From Thermodesulfobacteriota bacterium (GTDB lineage Bacteria; Desulfobacterota; Desulfobacteria; Desulfobacterales; Desulfosudaceae), in contig JBFMDX010000003.1 in the NCBI GenBank assembly GCA_040753795.1, positions 186,001 through 250,000 of the forward strand: DNA of 64,000 bases. The letters run 5' to 3'. This document shows, one piece after another, positions 58,067 to 64,000 of the stretch (its first letter is position 1; every line of letters begins with the position of its first letter). The notes beneath the pieces were generated by a model. It was not told where the DNA came from and did not search any database. It saw nothing but the letters and a program-made list of their open reading frames with translations. The translations under genes were made by a program, and so were the position numbers.

Positions 58067-58456
58067 ATGATGAAAACCAAAGGTCAGCTCGAGGCCAAAA
58101 TCTGCGAAGCGGTAATAAAGTTTGAAAAAGAGTATATGGGGAGAGGTCCCCTTGAGACCAAAGCCTACATTATTGATGATATGGTCCTGGTCAGGCTGAA
58201 GGACGTACTGACCCAGGCGGAGTTGAAACTGGCCAATACAACCAATTTGAATGACGGACGGGAACTGATCAAGCGTGTCCGGATCACCTTGCTGGAACAA
58301 GGCCGCTCCCTGCTGGAAGAAGCCGTGGAAAAAATTCTGAATGTAAAGATTAGAAGTCTGCATACGGATATCAGTACGGTGACAGGGGAAAGGGTGATTA
58401 TTTTTTCGTTGTCGGCGGCGCCCGAATACGTCACGGGGATCAGTAAGAAGGTTTGA
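58067..58456 (+). CDS. DUF2294 family protein
   Basis: 129 residues matching the DUF2294 layout: KGQLEAKICEAVIKFEKEYMGRG at the N-terminus, ETKAYIIDDMVLVRLKDVLTQAE, then LEEAVEKILNVKIRSLHTDIST and a strand ending in IIFSLS. The family is small, cytosolic and of unknown function, sometimes annotated as Na-translocating without good support. It has its own strong promoter and terminator, so it is expressed alone. Confidence 0.75.
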   Translation: MMKTKGQLEAKICEAVIKFEKEYMGRGPLETKAYIIDDMVLVRLKDVLTQAELKLANTTNLNDGRELIKRVRITLLEQGRSLLEEAVEKILNVKIRSLHTDISTVTGERVIIFSLSAAPEYVTGISKKV

Positions 58457-58461
58457 TTGGA

Positions 58462-58502
58462 CGCCGCAGGCGCCATGAATAATTCCGTGCGGCGAGTTTT
58501 TT
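58462..58502 (+). terminator. intrinsic terminator of the DUF2294 gene
   Basis: CGCCGCA (58462-58468) pairs with TGCGGCG (58488-58494), with further inner pairing, followed by AGTTTTTT. Confidence 0.75.
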
Positions 58503-58503
58503 G

Positions 58504-58701
58504 TTGACAGACATGTCCGGGTCGTAGTTTGATCAAATCCAGCCCGGCAAGGAGGTGCCGCCATGCGGCGCTTTTTTGAAGGGTAGCGGGTTAAAGCCCG
58601 CGGAGGTCTTAGCGTTTAATCGAGCCTTTCGCCGACGGCGAAGGGGGCGGGAAGAAGATAAGGCCGTCGTTCGTTTGATTACGAACGGCGGCTTTTTTTT
58701 T
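58504..58701 (+). ncRNA. candidate structured RNA with its own promoter and terminator
   Basis: A promoter-like TTGACA (58504-58509) and TTTGAT (58528-58533) are followed by about 160 bases of non-coding sequence. Successive hairpins are GCCGC/GCGGC with a T6 tract (58557-58577), GCGGG-TTAAA-CCCGC, and CCTTTCGCC/GGCGAAGG. The last is a long terminator (GCCGTCGTTCG pairing with CGAACGGCGGC, 58663-58692) with nine Ts. It ends 88 bases before the gamma-carbonic-anhydrase-like gene. It could be a small RNA or a two-terminator riboswitch leader for that gene and purE. I do not recognise a known Rfam class. Confidence 0.55.
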
Positions 58702-58788
58702 GCAACCGGAGACACCGCCGTGCAAGCGGCAGAAAGCTGCTCGTTTTTACGGCAGGAAGAAAAACTGAACTCATCAAATGGAGGGAAC

Positions 58789-59328
58789 ATGCTGTATCGC
58801 AATCATGCCGGCGATAAGCCGGTGGTGGCCGCAACGGCGACGATTCATCCCTCGGCCGTGGTGATCGGTAACGTACACATCGGTGAAAAGGTTTTTGTCG
58901 GGCCCAATGCCGTCATCCGGGCGGACGAGCCGTGCCCCACCGGCAAGGTGGAGGCGATCATCATCGAAGCGGAAGTCAACATCCAGGACGGCGTCATCAT
59001 CCACGCCCTGGGCGGTTCGCCGGTGCGCATCGGCAGGGGCAGTTCCCTGGCTCATGGATCTGTAATTCACGGGCCCTGCAACGTGAACGAGAATTGTTTC
59101 ATCGGTTTTAAAACCGTCGTGTTCAATGCCGAACTGGGCGCGGGGGTCGTCATCCAGCACCAGACATTGGTGGAAGGCGTCGTCATACCGGCAGGCCTGC
59201 ACGTGCCTTCCATGTCCGGCGTGCTGAACCAGGACGATGTCCGGCAACTGCGCCCCGTCACTCCCGAACTGACCGCTTTCGCGGAAAAGGTCCGGCAAAC
59301 CAACATCTTTTTAGCGGAGGTAGGCTGA
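58789..59328 (+). CDS. gamma-carbonic-anhydrase-like hexapeptide-repeat protein
   Basis: 179 residues from ATG 58789 (GGAGGG upstream); the longer open frame upstream runs through the structured RNA and is not protein. Left-handed beta-helix hexapeptide repeats (VVIGNVHIGEKVFVGPNAVIRAD and following) carry His residues in VIIHALGG, SLAHGSVIHGPC positions like the metal ligands of Cam. It is coupled to purE by one base. Bicarbonate/CO2 chemistry next to purE (CO2-dependent) and biotin genes may be meaningful. Confidence 0.82.
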   Translation: MLYRNHAGDKPVVAATATIHPSAVVIGNVHIGEKVFVGPNAVIRADEPCPTGKVEAIIIEAEVNIQDGVIIHALGGSPVRIGRGSSLAHGSVIHGPCNVNENCFIGFKTVVFNAELGAGVVIQHQTLVEGVVIPAGLHVPSMSGVLNQDDVRQLRPVTPELTAFAEKVRQTNIFLAEVG

Positions 59329-59329
59329 C

Positions 59330-59845
59330 ATGAACGATCCAACCATTCGACAAAAGCCCAAAGTGGCTGTGGTCATGGGGAGCAAGTCTGATGACGAAAC
59401 GATGAAGGAATGCGCCGGCGTTTTAGCCGCTTTCAAAGTGCCCTACGAAGTCCGGGTGATCTCGGCCCACCGGACCCCGGATCGCGCCCACGAATTCGCC
59501 GCCGGAGCCGAAGATCGGGGTATTCAGCTGATCATCGCGGCCGCCGGGAAAGCGGCTCATCTGGCCGGCGTGCTGGCGTCTTTGACGACCTTGCCGGTTC
59601 TCGGCGTGCCCATGACCACATCGGATCTGGGCGGCCTGGATTCTCTGCTTTCGACGGTTCAGATGCCCGGTGGAATCCCGGTAGGCACCCTGGCCATCGG
59701 CAAGGCAGGGGCTAAAAACGCGGCCTTGCTGGCCGTCTCCATTCTGGCCCTGAGTGACGAACGGTTGCGTTCGGAACTTAAAGCCTACCGGGAAAAAATG
59801 CGCGCCGAGGTCGCGGCCGACGACGAACGGATGAGGGATATCTGA
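59330..59845 (+). CDS. purE: N5-carboxyaminoimidazole ribonucleotide mutase
   Basis: 171 residues. VVMGSKSDDETMKEC, SAHRTPDRAHEFA and IIAAAGKAAHLAGVLAS are the diagnostic PurE motifs. It catalyses a purine biosynthesis step. The start follows the upstream stop immediately, so the two are co-translated. No purK lies next to it. Confidence 0.93.
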   Translation: MNDPTIRQKPKVAVVMGSKSDDETMKECAGVLAAFKVPYEVRVISAHRTPDRAHEFAAGAEDRGIQLIIAAAGKAAHLAGVLASLTTLPVLGVPMTTSDLGGLDSLLSTVQMPGGIPVGTLAIGKAGAKNAALLAVSILALSDERLRSELKAYREKMRAEVAADDERMRDI

Positions 59846-59953: not shown

Positions 59954-60061
59954 TTGACAACAGAGATCAGAGATTGTAGAAAGTTTCGCCTTTTGAACAC
60001 AGATGTCCAGATTGATCTTTTGACCGGAATTCACCCGCGGGTTGGGAGTTCCGGTTTTTTA
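59954..60061 (+). ncRNA. candidate small RNA between purE and birA
   Basis: TTGACA (59954-59959), a 17-base spacer and TAGAAA (59977-59982) are followed about 70 bases later by an intrinsic terminator (ACCGGAA 60023-60029 pairing with TTCCGGT 60049-60055, then T6). The predicted transcript of about 70 bases begins near 59989 and has no ORF. The -10 is weak. Confidence 0.45.
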
Positions 60062-60108: not shown

Positions 60109-60963
60109 ATGAATGAAAACTTTACCGGGCACGGCGCGATAAGCGTCGCTCCGCCGGCCGGAAACCCCGACTTGCGGGAGAAAGCGACCGCTTCCGAAAC
60201 CGGGGGGCACTCACCCCTGCGTCGGGTGGATTCATCCGGCGCTTTTGCCGTCTACTATTGCGACCACGCTACGTCGACCATGGACGCGGCCTTCGGGCTG
60301 GCTGCCCGGGGACGGTTCCCGGAAGGATCGTCGGTAATGGCCGGGCGCCAGACAAAGGGGCGGGGGCAGTTTACCAGGCCCTGGGTTTCTCCGCCGGGCA
60401 ATCTTTACGCCTCCATCCGCCTGCCGCAGCCCGGCCGGGAGTTTCCCCTGACGCCGTTTGTTCTGGCCCTGGCGGTCAACCGGGTGCTCAGCGGCCTGGG
60501 CCTGTTTGCCGAATTCAAATGGCCCAACGACATTCTGGTGAACCGGAAAAAAGCCGGCGGCATCCTGGTGGAGGAAAGGTCGGGGGTGACGGTCGCGGGA
60601 GTCGGCCTCAACCTGGCCAGCGCCCCGCCGGATTCGGAACTGAGGGACTCCCGGTCGATCCCGGCAATCTGTTTGAATGTTTGCGGCGTGTCCCGGCAGC
60701 CGCTGGCGCTGTGGCGGGAGCTCGCCGGGTCCATCATGGACCATCTGGACCGCTTCCGGGCCTGCCCGGACCGGAACGGCCTTGTCCGCTCCCTGGAAAA
60801 AAATCTCGCCTTCATGGGCGAACGGGTGGTGACCGCCTCTGCCGGCGGGCATGAAATTCCGGCCACGGTGTCGGGGTTATCGGAATCCGGGGGCATCCGG
60901 CTGAAAACTCAGGAGGGAGAAAAAATCCTGTTTTCCGGAAGCATTCTCCCCCTTATCTGTTGA
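60109..60963 (+). CDS. birA: biotin-[acetyl-CoA-carboxylase] ligase
   Basis: 284 residues. After a 45-residue unrelated leader the catalytic domain shows DHATSTMDAAF, AGRQTKGRGQFTRPWVSPPGNLYASI, FKWPNDILVNRKKAGGILVE and a C-terminal SH3-like domain. The N-terminal DNA-binding wing of E. coli BirA is absent, so it is a class I ligase without repressor function. It would biotinylate the carboxylase encoded just downstream. Confidence 0.9.
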   Translation: MNENFTGHGAISVAPPAGNPDLREKATASETGGHSPLRRVDSSGAFAVYYCDHATSTMDAAFGLAARGRFPEGSSVMAGRQTKGRGQFTRPWVSPPGNLYASIRLPQPGREFPLTPFVLALAVNRVLSGLGLFAEFKWPNDILVNRKKAGGILVEERSGVTVAGVGLNLASAPPDSELRDSRSIPAICLNVCGVSRQPLALWRELAGSIMDHLDRFRACPDRNGLVRSLEKNLAFMGERVVTASAGGHEIPATVSGLSESGGIRLKTQEGEKILFSGSILPLIC

Positions 60964-60981: not shown

Positions 60982-63900
60982 ATGAAAACATTCGCTGACG
61001 TGTGCGCAGAAATCAGAGACAAAAAAATACTGGTGGCCAACCGGGGCATCGCGGCCCGGAGAATCACCCGGACCATCCGGGAACTGTTCAGGGCCGTCCC
61101 GGTCATGACCGTGACCGACGTGGACAAGACCGCCCCGTTCACGGCCGGCGCCAGGGAACTGGTGCTGCTGGGCCAGAACCCCCGGGCCTACCTGGAACTC
61201 GACCGGATCATCGCCCTGTCCAGAAAGCAGGGCATCGCCGCCATCCACCCGGGCTGGGGGTTCGCCTCGGAGGACGCGGGCTTTCCGGACAAGTGCCGGC
61301 AGGCGGGCATTCTTTTTATCGGTCCCTCCTCCGAAGGCATGGAACTTCTGGGCAACAAGGTCAGGGTGCGGGAACTGGCCAGAAAACTGGACATCCCGGT
61401 CGTACCGGGGTCTCCCGGCGCGGTGGACGTGGAAACCGCCCGGCAGGTGGCCCTGGAAATCGGCCTGCCCGTCATGCTCAAGGCCGAAGGCGGCGGCGGC
61501 GGCCGGGGCATTTACGCGGTCCACGACCTGGAGCAGATGGAAAACGCCTTTGCCAAGGCCTCGGCCCTGGCCCACGCCTCCTTCGGGAACCCCAGGCTCT
61601 TCGTGGAAAAACTGCTCACCTCGGTGCGCCACATCGAAATCCAGGTCATCGCCGATTGCCACGGCCATGTCTTCGCCTTTGACGAACGGGACTGCACCGT
61701 TCAGCGCAACCACCAGAAACTGGTCGAGATCACCCCCTCCCCCTGGCCGAAGATGACCGCGGAACTGCGGTCCCGCCTGAAAGAGTACGCCTCCCGGCTG
61801 GTCAGGGCCGTCAACTATCACTCCCTGGCCACGGTGGAATTTCTCGTGGATGCCGACGGGAACGTCTACCTCATCGAGGTCAACACCCGCCTCCAGGTGG
61901 AGCACGGCATCACCGAGTGCCGTTACGGCATCGATTTGGTGGAAGAGCAGATCGCGGTGGCCTTCGGGGCAAAGCTCCGCTTCAACGAGGCGGACACCCT
62001 GCCCCGGTCCCACGCCATCCAGGTGCGGATCAACTGCGAGGACCCCCGCCACGGTTTTACCCCCAACTCGGGGCTCATCACCCGCTATCTCTCGCCGGGC
62101 GGCCCCGGCATCCGCCTGGACTCCTGCGTTTCCGGCGGCTACGAGTTCCCGCCCCACTACGACTCGGCGGCGGCCCTGCTCATCGCCTACGGCGGGGACC
62201 GGGACAAGACCCTGGCCATCATGGACCGGGCCCTGAACGAATACATCATCGGCGGCCCCAAGACGACCATCCCCTTCCACCTGCGGATCATCAACCACCC
62301 CCGCTTCCGGGCCGGGGATTACGACACCCGCTTCGTCGACACCACGCCGGAACTGATGTATTACAAGGACCTGGACCTGGAAGCCCTGCGGTTGAGCCGC
62401 CTGACAGCCGAAATATCGGCCCGGGGGTACAACCCCTTTGTCCAGCTCGGCGAATACCGGGGACTGGAGGACAAGCGCATGCCGGTTTTCGAGCCGGTGC
62501 TGCCCAAGCTGGACAAGACACGCGTCGACCCGGCCTATCCCCGGGGAGACCGGAAGGCCCTGCTCGACTATGTCCGGGATTCGGGCCGGGTCCACTTCAC
62601 CGACACCACTCCCCGGGACATCACCCAGTCCAACAGCGGCAACCGCTTCCGCCTGGCCGAAGACATCCTCATCGGCCCCTACCTGGACCGGTGCGGCTTC
62701 TTTTCCATCGAAAACGGCGGCGGCGCCCACTTTCACGTGGCCCTCATGGCCAACATGACCTATCCCTTCAACGAGGCCAAGGTCTGGAACCAGATCGCGC
62801 CGGCCACGCCCAAGCAGATCCTGGTGCGCTCCACCAACCTGCTGGGCTACAAGCCCCAGCCCCGGAACCTGATGCGGCTCACCGGCGAGATGATCTGCGA
62901 GCACCACGACATCGTCCGCTGTTTCGACTTCCTCAACCACATGGACAACATGGCCCCCCTGGCCGAAGTGGTCATGGCCGCGGAGGGGAACGTGTTCGAG
63001 CCCGCCATTTCCCTTTCCTGGGCCCGGGGATTCGACGTGCCCCATTACCTCAACGCCGTGGACGAGATCATGGCCATGATTTCCCGCGTCACCGGCCGCC
63101 CGGCGTCCCGGGCCCAGAAGGAGTTCATCCTGGGGCTCAAGGACATGGCCGGCGTCTGTCCCCCGCGGTTCATGAAGGGCCTGGTCGCCGCCATCCGCAG
63201 AAAATACCCCGAACTGGTGATCCACTACCACCGCCACTTCACCGACGGGCTGTTCACCCCCTCGGTCGCCGGGGCCGCCTGGGCCGGCGCCCACATCGTG
63301 GACACGGCCATCGGTTCCGCCGTCCGCTGGTACGGCCAGGGCGAGGTCCTGTCCACCGCCGCCTACATGGAAGAGGAGCTGGGCCTGAAAACCTCCCTGA
63401 ACAGGGAAATGATCCGCGCCTGCAACTTCGTCCTCAAGCAGATCATGCCCTACTATGACCGCTACGCCGCCCCCTACTTCAGGGGCATCGACCATGACGT
63501 CATTCACCACGGCATGCCCGGCGGGGCCACCTCCTCCTCCCAGGAAGGCGCCATGAAGCAGGGCTACATCCGCCTCCTCCCCTACATGCTGCGGTTCCTG
63601 GCGGGGACCCGGAAGATCGTCCGTTACCACGACGTGACGCCCGGCTCCCAGATCACCTGGAACACGGCCTTCCTGGCGGTCACCGGTGCCTTCAAGCGCG
63701 GCGGCGAAGAGGAGGTCGGCCGGCTGCTCTGGGTGCTGGAAGAAGTCGCGGGCGTCCCGGAAAACCAGTTGAGCGCGGAACTGAAAAAAGAACGCCTGAT
63801 TCTCTACCGTGAAGCCAACGACGCCTTCCGCAACCTGCTGCTGGGCCGGTTCGGCAAAATGCCCCTGGGATTCCCGCCCGACTGGGTGTACGAAAGCGCC

Positions 63901-64000
63901 TTCGGCCCGGATTACCGGACCCATCTGACCGGGAGGACCGAAAACTCTCCGCTGGACTCCCTGGTGGACATCGATATCGCGGCCGAAAAGGAGGCCCTGA
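60982..64000 (+). CDS. pyruvate carboxylase-like multidomain biotin enzyme (partial, cut by window end)
   Basis: 1006 residues are visible. The biotin carboxylase domain (residues 14-460) has ATP-grasp LKAEGGGGGRGIYAV and EVNTRLQVEHGITE. The HMGL-like carboxyltransferase domain begins near residue 535 (HFTDTTPRDITQSN in place of DAHQS) and includes GLKDMAG with the carboxylated Lys position and IHYHRHFTDG in place of HTHD. A PYC-like C-terminal domain follows. The biotin domain should lie beyond the window. The altered signatures suggest a substrate different from pyruvate or a divergent clade. GGAGGAATC precedes ATG 60982. Confidence 0.85.
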   Translation, partial: MKTFADVCAEIRDKKILVANRGIAARRITRTIRELFRAVPVMTVTDVDKTAPFTAGARELVLLGQNPRAYLELDRIIALSRKQGIAAIHPGWGFASEDAGFPDKCRQAGILFIGPSSEGMELLGNKVRVRELARKLDIPVVPGSPGAVDVETARQVALEIGLPVMLKAEGGGGGRGIYAVHDLEQMENAFAKASALAHASFGNPRLFVEKLLTSVRHIEIQVIADCHGHVFAFDERDCTVQRNHQKLVEITPSPWPKMTAELRSRLKEYASRLVRAVNYHSLATVEFLVDADGNVYLIEVNTRLQVEHGITECRYGIDLVEEQIAVAFGAKLRFNEADTLPRSHAIQVRINCEDPRHGFTPNSGLITRYLSPGGPGIRLDSCVSGGYEFPPHYDSAAALLIAYGGDRDKTLAIMDRALNEYIIGGPKTTIPFHLRIINHPRFRAGDYDTRFVDTTPELMYYKDLDLEALRLSRLTAEISARGYNPFVQLGEYRGLEDKRMPVFEPVLPKLDKTRVDPAYPRGDRKALLDYVRDSGRVHFTDTTPRDITQSNSGNRFRLAEDILIGPYLDRCGFFSIENGGGAHFHVALMANMTYPFNEAKVWNQIAPATPKQILVRSTNLLGYKPQPRNLMRLTGEMICEHHDIVRCFDFLNHMDNMAPLAEVVMAAEGNVFEPAISLSWARGFDVPHYLNAVDEIMAMISRVTGRPASRAQKEFILGLKDMAGVCPPRFMKGLVAAIRRKYPELVIHYHRHFTDGLFTPSVAGAAWAGAHIVDTAIGSAVRWYGQGEVLSTAAYMEEELGLKTSLNREMIRACNFVLKQIMPYYDRYAAPYFRGIDHDVIHHGMPGGATSSSQEGAMKQGYIRLLPYMLRFLAGTRKIVRYHDVTPGSQITWNTAFLAVTGAFKRGGEEEVGRLLWVLEEVAGVPENQLSAELKKERLILYREANDAFRNLLLGRFGKMPLGFPPDWVYESAFGPDYRTHLTGRTENSPLDSLVDIDIAAEKEAL

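Follow-up and report, generated by a model that had tools for sequence, protein, structure and literature searches.

In the window, i.e. the whole analysed stretch of 64,000 nucleotides from a Thermodesulfobacteriota bacterium, a conserved, structured and covarying RNA without an Rfam family occupies positions 58504-58701 of the + strand. Judging from its predicted folding and its gene neighbourhood, this leader is probably an attenuator of transcription that acts in cis and belongs to a family outside Rfam. The order of features is mpsC, leader, carbonic anhydrase-like gene, purE, birA and pyruvate carboxylase-like gene, all of them on the + strand. The initial annotation had considered either an abundant small RNA or riboswitch control of the downstream genes. 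The structured and conserved nature of the RNA was confirmed and control of the genes behind it was supported, whereas the small RNA reading was weakened. A cis-acting attenuator is likelier than a stand-alone small RNA, because one helix of the leader (P1) and the terminator exclude each other and because the distances from terminator to start codon are short.

Position and signals of the leader

The exact coordinates run from the start of a TTGACA hexamer (58504-58509, +) to the final T of the terminator's T run. The hexamer is presumed to be the -35 element of a promoter. It was present in all 22 homologous leaders, TTGACA being a requirement of the extraction script, which failed on none of the 22 leaders supplied. 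A candidate -10 hexamer, TTTGAT (58528-58533), was assigned by eye; it is weak and separated by an 18-base spacer. A strict promoter scan reported no promoter at the leader. Of the promoter-like site noted earlier, the perfect and conserved -35 hexamer was upheld, but not a strong -10 element or a positive scan. No credible ORF had been seen here and this agrees with our reading, as the sole long frame (58555-59328) prolongs, in the upstream direction, the frame of the carbonic anhydrase, which starts at 58789.

The terminator scan detected a strong intrinsic terminator with a long stem and a run of nine T at 58660-58701 (+), which folding and covariation supported as well. Within 801 bases, both strands included, the scan listed three terminator-like sites where 1.2 were expected. 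Two terminator-like structures had been proposed. The second is probably the hairpin 58555-58567 followed by TTTTTT, but this is absent from the scan list and by eye its T run is not kept in the homologues.

Fold and covariation

The minimum free energy of the leader was -94.5 kcal/mol compared to -67.1 kcal/mol (sd 4.05) for 200 dinucleotide shuffles, none of which was equally low (z -6.78). This confirms the structured RNA of the initial annotation, including its four hairpins, which were predicted at 58542-58584, 58586-58601, 58620-58650 and 58660-58692.

The 5' hairpin P0 (58542-58584) has the basal stem GCCC/GGGT and a G-rich 3' flank, GAAGGGT; it is predicted by folding, with weakly supported covariation (consensus energy -0.27). 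An accessory linker hairpin, GCGGGT/GCCCGC (58586-58601), was found by folding and is not conserved among the aligned homologues. P1 consists of the antiterminator 5' strand GGTCTTA (58605-58611) and the 3' strand TAAGGCC (58659-58665), as seen by folding and the covariation test, and the 3' strand is also the foot of the terminator's 5' arm. Between P1 and the hairpin P2 (58620-58650) lies an internal loop with a conserved 5' side, GCGTTTAA (58612-58619; GMGUU in relatives), and a conserved A-rich 3' side (58651-58658; AAATA in most relatives), both defined on the alignment A5. P2 itself, supported by covariation and alignment, is divided into two parts by a conserved purine-G mismatch. All these elements are on the + strand.

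Alignment A5 comprises 20 of the 22 leaders, leaving out L099 and L132, which fell below the E-value cut. Covariation across relatives, named in the initial annotation as a check, was strong in P2 and in the terminator. A5 was fitted to a model containing both helices, so the following counts lean towards them: in P2, 85.5% of the cells were paired, both-side changes occurred in 10 of 11 pairs and the covariation score was 0.543 compared to 0.270 in shuffles (0/500 as high; slid versions at most 0.185), while in the terminator 97.3% were paired with both-side changes in 12 of 17 pairs (0/500 shuffles as high).

The P1 helix was not included in that model. On A5, 77.5% of its cells were paired compared to 74.0% in shuffles (4/500 as high) and 27-60% when the helix was slid. 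Both-side changes were found in three of six pairs (75/500 shuffles had as many) and further pair types were matched in 151/500; the covariation score was reached by 14/500 shuffles and exceeded by one slid version. P1 is supported by its position more than by covariation, which is modest.

An additional pairing of the G-rich stretch behind P0 with the P2 5' strand, a candidate found by eye, was rejected, as 829 of 10,000 permutations between leaders were equally good and as folding puts this stretch into the P0 basal stem in several leaders.

Homologues of the RNA

A search at the DNA level in 58 relatives returned the window itself as sole match (1/58). The RNA diverges too fast for such a search, and covariance models were therefore needed. 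Inspection of purE and carbonic anhydrase neighbourhoods revealed the element in six other records, each time in the gap that follows mpsC. Model R1 was built from seven sequences and model R2 from twenty. Among 389 genomes of the order to which the window belongs, R2 gave 22 sense matches of at least 48.8 bits in 21 genomes. Below 48.8 bits the list drops to antisense matches and isolated rows of at most 41.6 bits. Antisense matches correspond to terminators read backwards and were excluded from every count. Twenty of the 21 genomes carry one match; G045 carries two.

Across the wider phylum (297 genomes) R1 gave no convincing match other than the window. Five further rows (38-42 bits or below) were rejected as chance matches; none of their four loci is near mpsC, purE, carbonic anhydrase, birA or mobB. 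The neighbourhood search revealed one clear member outside the genome set of the order, in Desulfobulbus alkaliphilus (L007). A weak and degenerate sense match (L100:1501-1603, 41.6 bits) precedes birA in a genome without an mpsC above the threshold. The phage collection contained no match to the RNA.

Genes behind the leader

The first gene downstream (58789-59328, +) starts 87 bases past the T run and encodes a gamma-class carbonic anhydrase-like hexapeptide protein of 179 aa, with a CcmM domain and carbonic anhydrase as best NCBIfam matches, both under the cut-off. It is followed by purE (59330-59845, +; TIGR01162 over cut-off), a birA-like biotin protein ligase gene (60109-60963, +; PF03099) and a pyruvate carboxylase-like gene (60982-64000, +; 1227 aa, L154:2983-6666) which runs off the window. 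A downstream pair of genes had been described initially; both were confirmed, but the unit is wider, with birA and pyruvate carboxylase coming next. The stretch 59954-60059, between purE and birA, contains a TTGACA hexamer as well as a hairpin with T run that resembles a terminator. The scan lists neither this promoter nor this terminator and the fold is unremarkable (z -0.96); the element may split the operon.

In the 22 loci the first gene, identified mostly by eye from aligned starts with representatives scanned, was a carbonic anhydrase in nine, purC in seven, birA in two, and in one each purE, biotin carboxylase, an HMGL-like gene and a glycosyltransferase (L098). PurC uses the product of PurE. 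A carboxylation theme (CO2, bicarbonate or biotin use, or an adjoining step) therefore holds for the first gene in 21 of the 22 loci. Genes for carboxyltransferase and biotin carboxylase, pyruvate carboxylase and carA/carB are located further on in some loci, as are those for pyruvate:ferredoxin oxidoreductase and indolepyruvate oxidoreductase-like proteins. These genes may have stayed linked because they descend from one ancestral cluster, and the theme is therefore not independent evidence. Class II PurE takes CO2 directly. No PurK was found above the cut-off in the genome of the window, and its PurE may therefore take CO2 directly, which fits class II.

Linkage to mpsC

The gene directly upstream of the RNA (58067-58456, +; 129 aa) is mpsC-like (Pfam PF10057, DUF2294; E 3.8e-36). 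An mpsC match (E 1e-15) was present in 30 of the 389 genomes of the order. Reading these 30 loci, we found this RNA behind mpsC in 20, another RNA, here named type B, in five, and neither in five. Conversely, mpsC adjoins the RNA on its upstream side in every one of the 21 genomes whose match scores at least 48.8 bits, in two of them in broken form. In G673 (L152) an internal deletion and a frame change have broken mpsC; the leader TTGACA, the RNA and the carbonic anhydrase are all still present. In G610 (L217) a frame change and a lost end affect mpsC, the leader TTGACA and the carbonic anhydrase are gone, and the intact RNA core is now located before carA. The persistence of the RNA tells against a strict need for mpsC; both breaks are recent events in one genus. 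The upstream neighbours of mpsC in the window, mobB and an AMP ligase gene, are kept in none of 30 other loci.

The predicted structure of MpsC is confident (pLDDT 92.4). Compared with the PDB it had no significant relative (lowest Foldseek E 0.03; highest Z 6.7, obtained with an unrelated protein), and in the structure searches run there was no fold match to an RNA-binding family, an absence from lists which proves nothing. In S. aureus, deletion of mpsC is reported to give no phenotype and MpsC to stand outside the MpsAB transporter (PMC6689103, PMC8552792). DabA, the other subunit of an MpsAB-type transporter, was not found in the genome of the window. Hence the name MpsC implies no bicarbonate pump here, and the Pfam name is misleading.

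Other RNA types behind mpsC

Type B has the same layout and was found behind mpsC in five further genomes of the order (L146, L148, L149, L151 and L170, the last being the longer locus in which L147 was read). It is located about 60-110 bases behind a TTGACA, after a divergent mpsC, and is shorter, with AAGAGGATC...GATCAGCTTTGAATAG followed by a terminator. By eye, its outer strand can pair with the 5' arm of the terminator. The genes after type B are purE, birA plus pyc, and carboxyltransferase.

In other families of the phylum a third type, type C, is located behind mpsC (L183, L184, L185, L186, L187 and L189), with GCAGATTCCTGGAAGGG ... AGGAAT and then a terminator; its consensus fold comprises an outer stem, P2 and the terminator. 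purE is near by in L185 and L189. Two genomes (L184, L186) carry type C twice, behind mpsC and behind a second mpsC-like gene; the copies precede a second mpsC-like gene and another gene. Yet another terminator-bearing stretch behind mpsC was seen in L176, L178 and L181, with TGGAAGATTG ... AATAAGCC; it precedes a protein with the common start KIFARKVI.YT..K.CET..ELL.

Competition between P1 and the terminator

P1 and the terminator are mutually exclusive, since the 3' strand of P1 is the foot of the terminator's 5' arm. When nascent transcripts cut at the end of the P1 3' strand were folded, the probability of P1 was at least 0.8 in 16 of 20, compared to 10% after shuffling of the upstream part. 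It stayed under 0.8 in the truncated transcripts of L085, L097, L133 and L152. The leader thus has an expression platform which, by prediction, excludes the P1/P2 domain.

The start codon follows the terminator's final T at a distance of 18-41 bases in 13 of the 22 loci (ten determined by script; L090, L113 and L098 by eye) and of 77-131 bases in the other nine. A gap of 18-41 bases is too short for a sigma-70 promoter, so that transcription of the downstream genes must depend on read-through, coming either from the leader promoter or from mpsC. A strong terminator so close before the genes is only sensible if it can be overruled. The 87-base gap in the window may leave room for a separate promoter.

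Proposed mechanism and alternative explanations

According to the attenuator model, transcription would start behind mpsC at the TTGACA promoter. In the emerging RNA P0 would fold first, then P1 and P2, with P1 closing the P2 domain: its 5' strand would pair with those bases that otherwise open the 5' arm of the terminator. As long as the P1/P2 domain is stabilised, formation of the terminator foot would be blocked and the polymerase would read into the carboxylation operon. Without this stabilisation, the long terminator would form and transcription would stop. We infer that the switch is regulated and is ON when P1/P2 is stabilised. Our first guess for the stabiliser, tentatively made, is the MpsC protein encoded next door. 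The second guess, made with a little more reserve, is that the RNA itself binds a small molecule, which may be connected with inorganic carbon. As the signal, MpsC is slightly ahead of a ligand. Both are forms of an attenuator and their likelihoods overlap.

A protein-dependent attenuator, in which MpsC would bind the antiterminator, is possible but doubtful. Given the tight linkage to mpsC it is at least as likely as a strict riboswitch: mpsC is directly upstream in each of the 21 genomes, other lineages carry different RNAs behind it, and DabA is absent from the genome of the window. MpsC is moreover without a settled function, its deletion in S. aureus being reported to have no phenotype (PMC6689103, PMC8552792). 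On the other hand, the structure searches (Foldseek E 0.03 and Z 6.7 at best) did not place MpsC in an RNA-binding family, and the RNA is still there in the two genomes (G673, G610) with a broken mpsC.

Somewhat less probable is a strict riboswitch, whose P0-P2 domain would bind a small molecule to which the terminator responds. By gene content, candidate ligands are biotin, bicarbonate or a metabolite linked to CO2, and intermediates of the purine pathway, for example CAIR. The conserved internal loop between P1 and P2 together with the expression platform is consistent with this, as are the shared use of CO2, bicarbonate or biotin by the downstream genes and a PurE which, PurK not reaching the cut-off, may take CO2 directly. 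However, all good matches are located directly behind mpsC and the sole sense match without mpsC is the weak one of L100 (41.6 bits). Furthermore, a protein partner that diverged together with its RNA would explain more easily than a single ligand why one gene set has two dissimilar RNAs.

It is improbable that the RNA acts in trans as an independent small RNA (about 160 bases) which has a promoter and a terminator to itself and to which the downstream genes are mere neighbours. Its own -35 hexamer, the very strong terminator, about one copy per genome and a fixed place behind mpsC in front of varying genes would fit such an RNA. Against it stand the distance of at most 41 bases from terminator to start codon in 13 of 22 loci, the competition of P1 with the terminator, which would be needless for a plain small RNA, and the second RNA type, which occupies this position in front of genes of a similar kind. 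An attenuator coupled to the translation of a leader peptide, for which ATGCGGCGCTTTTTTGAAGGGTAG behind AAGGAGG in the window (58563 on) and similar short frames in L003 and L005 could be cited, can practically be dismissed, as 14 of the 22 leaders lack a frame of at least five codons with a Shine-Dalgarno-like site and no peptide is common to them.

Beyond the preferred cis-acting attenuator, there is a broader proposal which we regard as rather unlikely. MpsC proteins (DUF2294/PF10057) would be new RNA-binding antitermination regulators reporting the inorganic carbon status, each acting on an adjacent, co-diverging leader, and here on an operon that comprises carbonic anhydrase, purE and genes of biotin-dependent carboxylases; in an alternative form, the RNA itself would sense bicarbonate or CO2. 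If the attenuator reading as such is right, it would add a family of attenuators not described so far, whose gene set is clear (CO2 and bicarbonate use). It would also provide a starting point for understanding mpsC, which is conserved and is named after a transporter operon outside of which it functionally stands. Literature searches on riboswitches for bicarbonate, carbonic anhydrase, carboxylases or biotin, or on antitermination by mpsC, gave nothing relevant, and as far as these searches show RNA-based adjustment of bacterial carboxylases to inorganic carbon has not been described.

Comparison with known RNAs and systems

That no known riboswitch class could be recognised is in agreement with the Rfam search proposed initially, which gave no family of Rfam 15 (ZTP, purine, PRPP, glycine, TPP and others) at the gathering cut-off in the window. 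At E up to 10 only chance-level matches were found in 58200-59000, and none of the homologous leaders reached the gathering score of a family. The PyrR match (19.7 bits, gathering 54; E 4.3) is at chance level and derives from the terminator. In L137 the same search located a tRNA past the leader, on the opposite strand.

In transcription-terminating riboswitches a P1 strand may overlap the terminator. The leader resembles them in its structured domain, the conserved internal loop, the P1 strand common to the terminator 5' arm, the long terminator and the downstream genes of one theme, but differs in being without an Rfam match and in its strict linkage to one protein gene. PyrR and LicT/RAT are protein-dependent antiterminator systems. 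With these the leader shares an antiterminator hairpin overlapping the terminator and a regulator-type gene, here mpsC, next door; unlike them it showed no match in RNA sequence, nor did MpsC match their proteins in the searches run. The gcsH motif is reported as a rare RNA motif of Desulfobacteraceae and precedes gcsH, in contrast to the RNA studied here (PMC11109978). Compared by description only, the two are alike in occurring in the same bacterial group and in being located upstream of a metabolic gene (PMC11109978).
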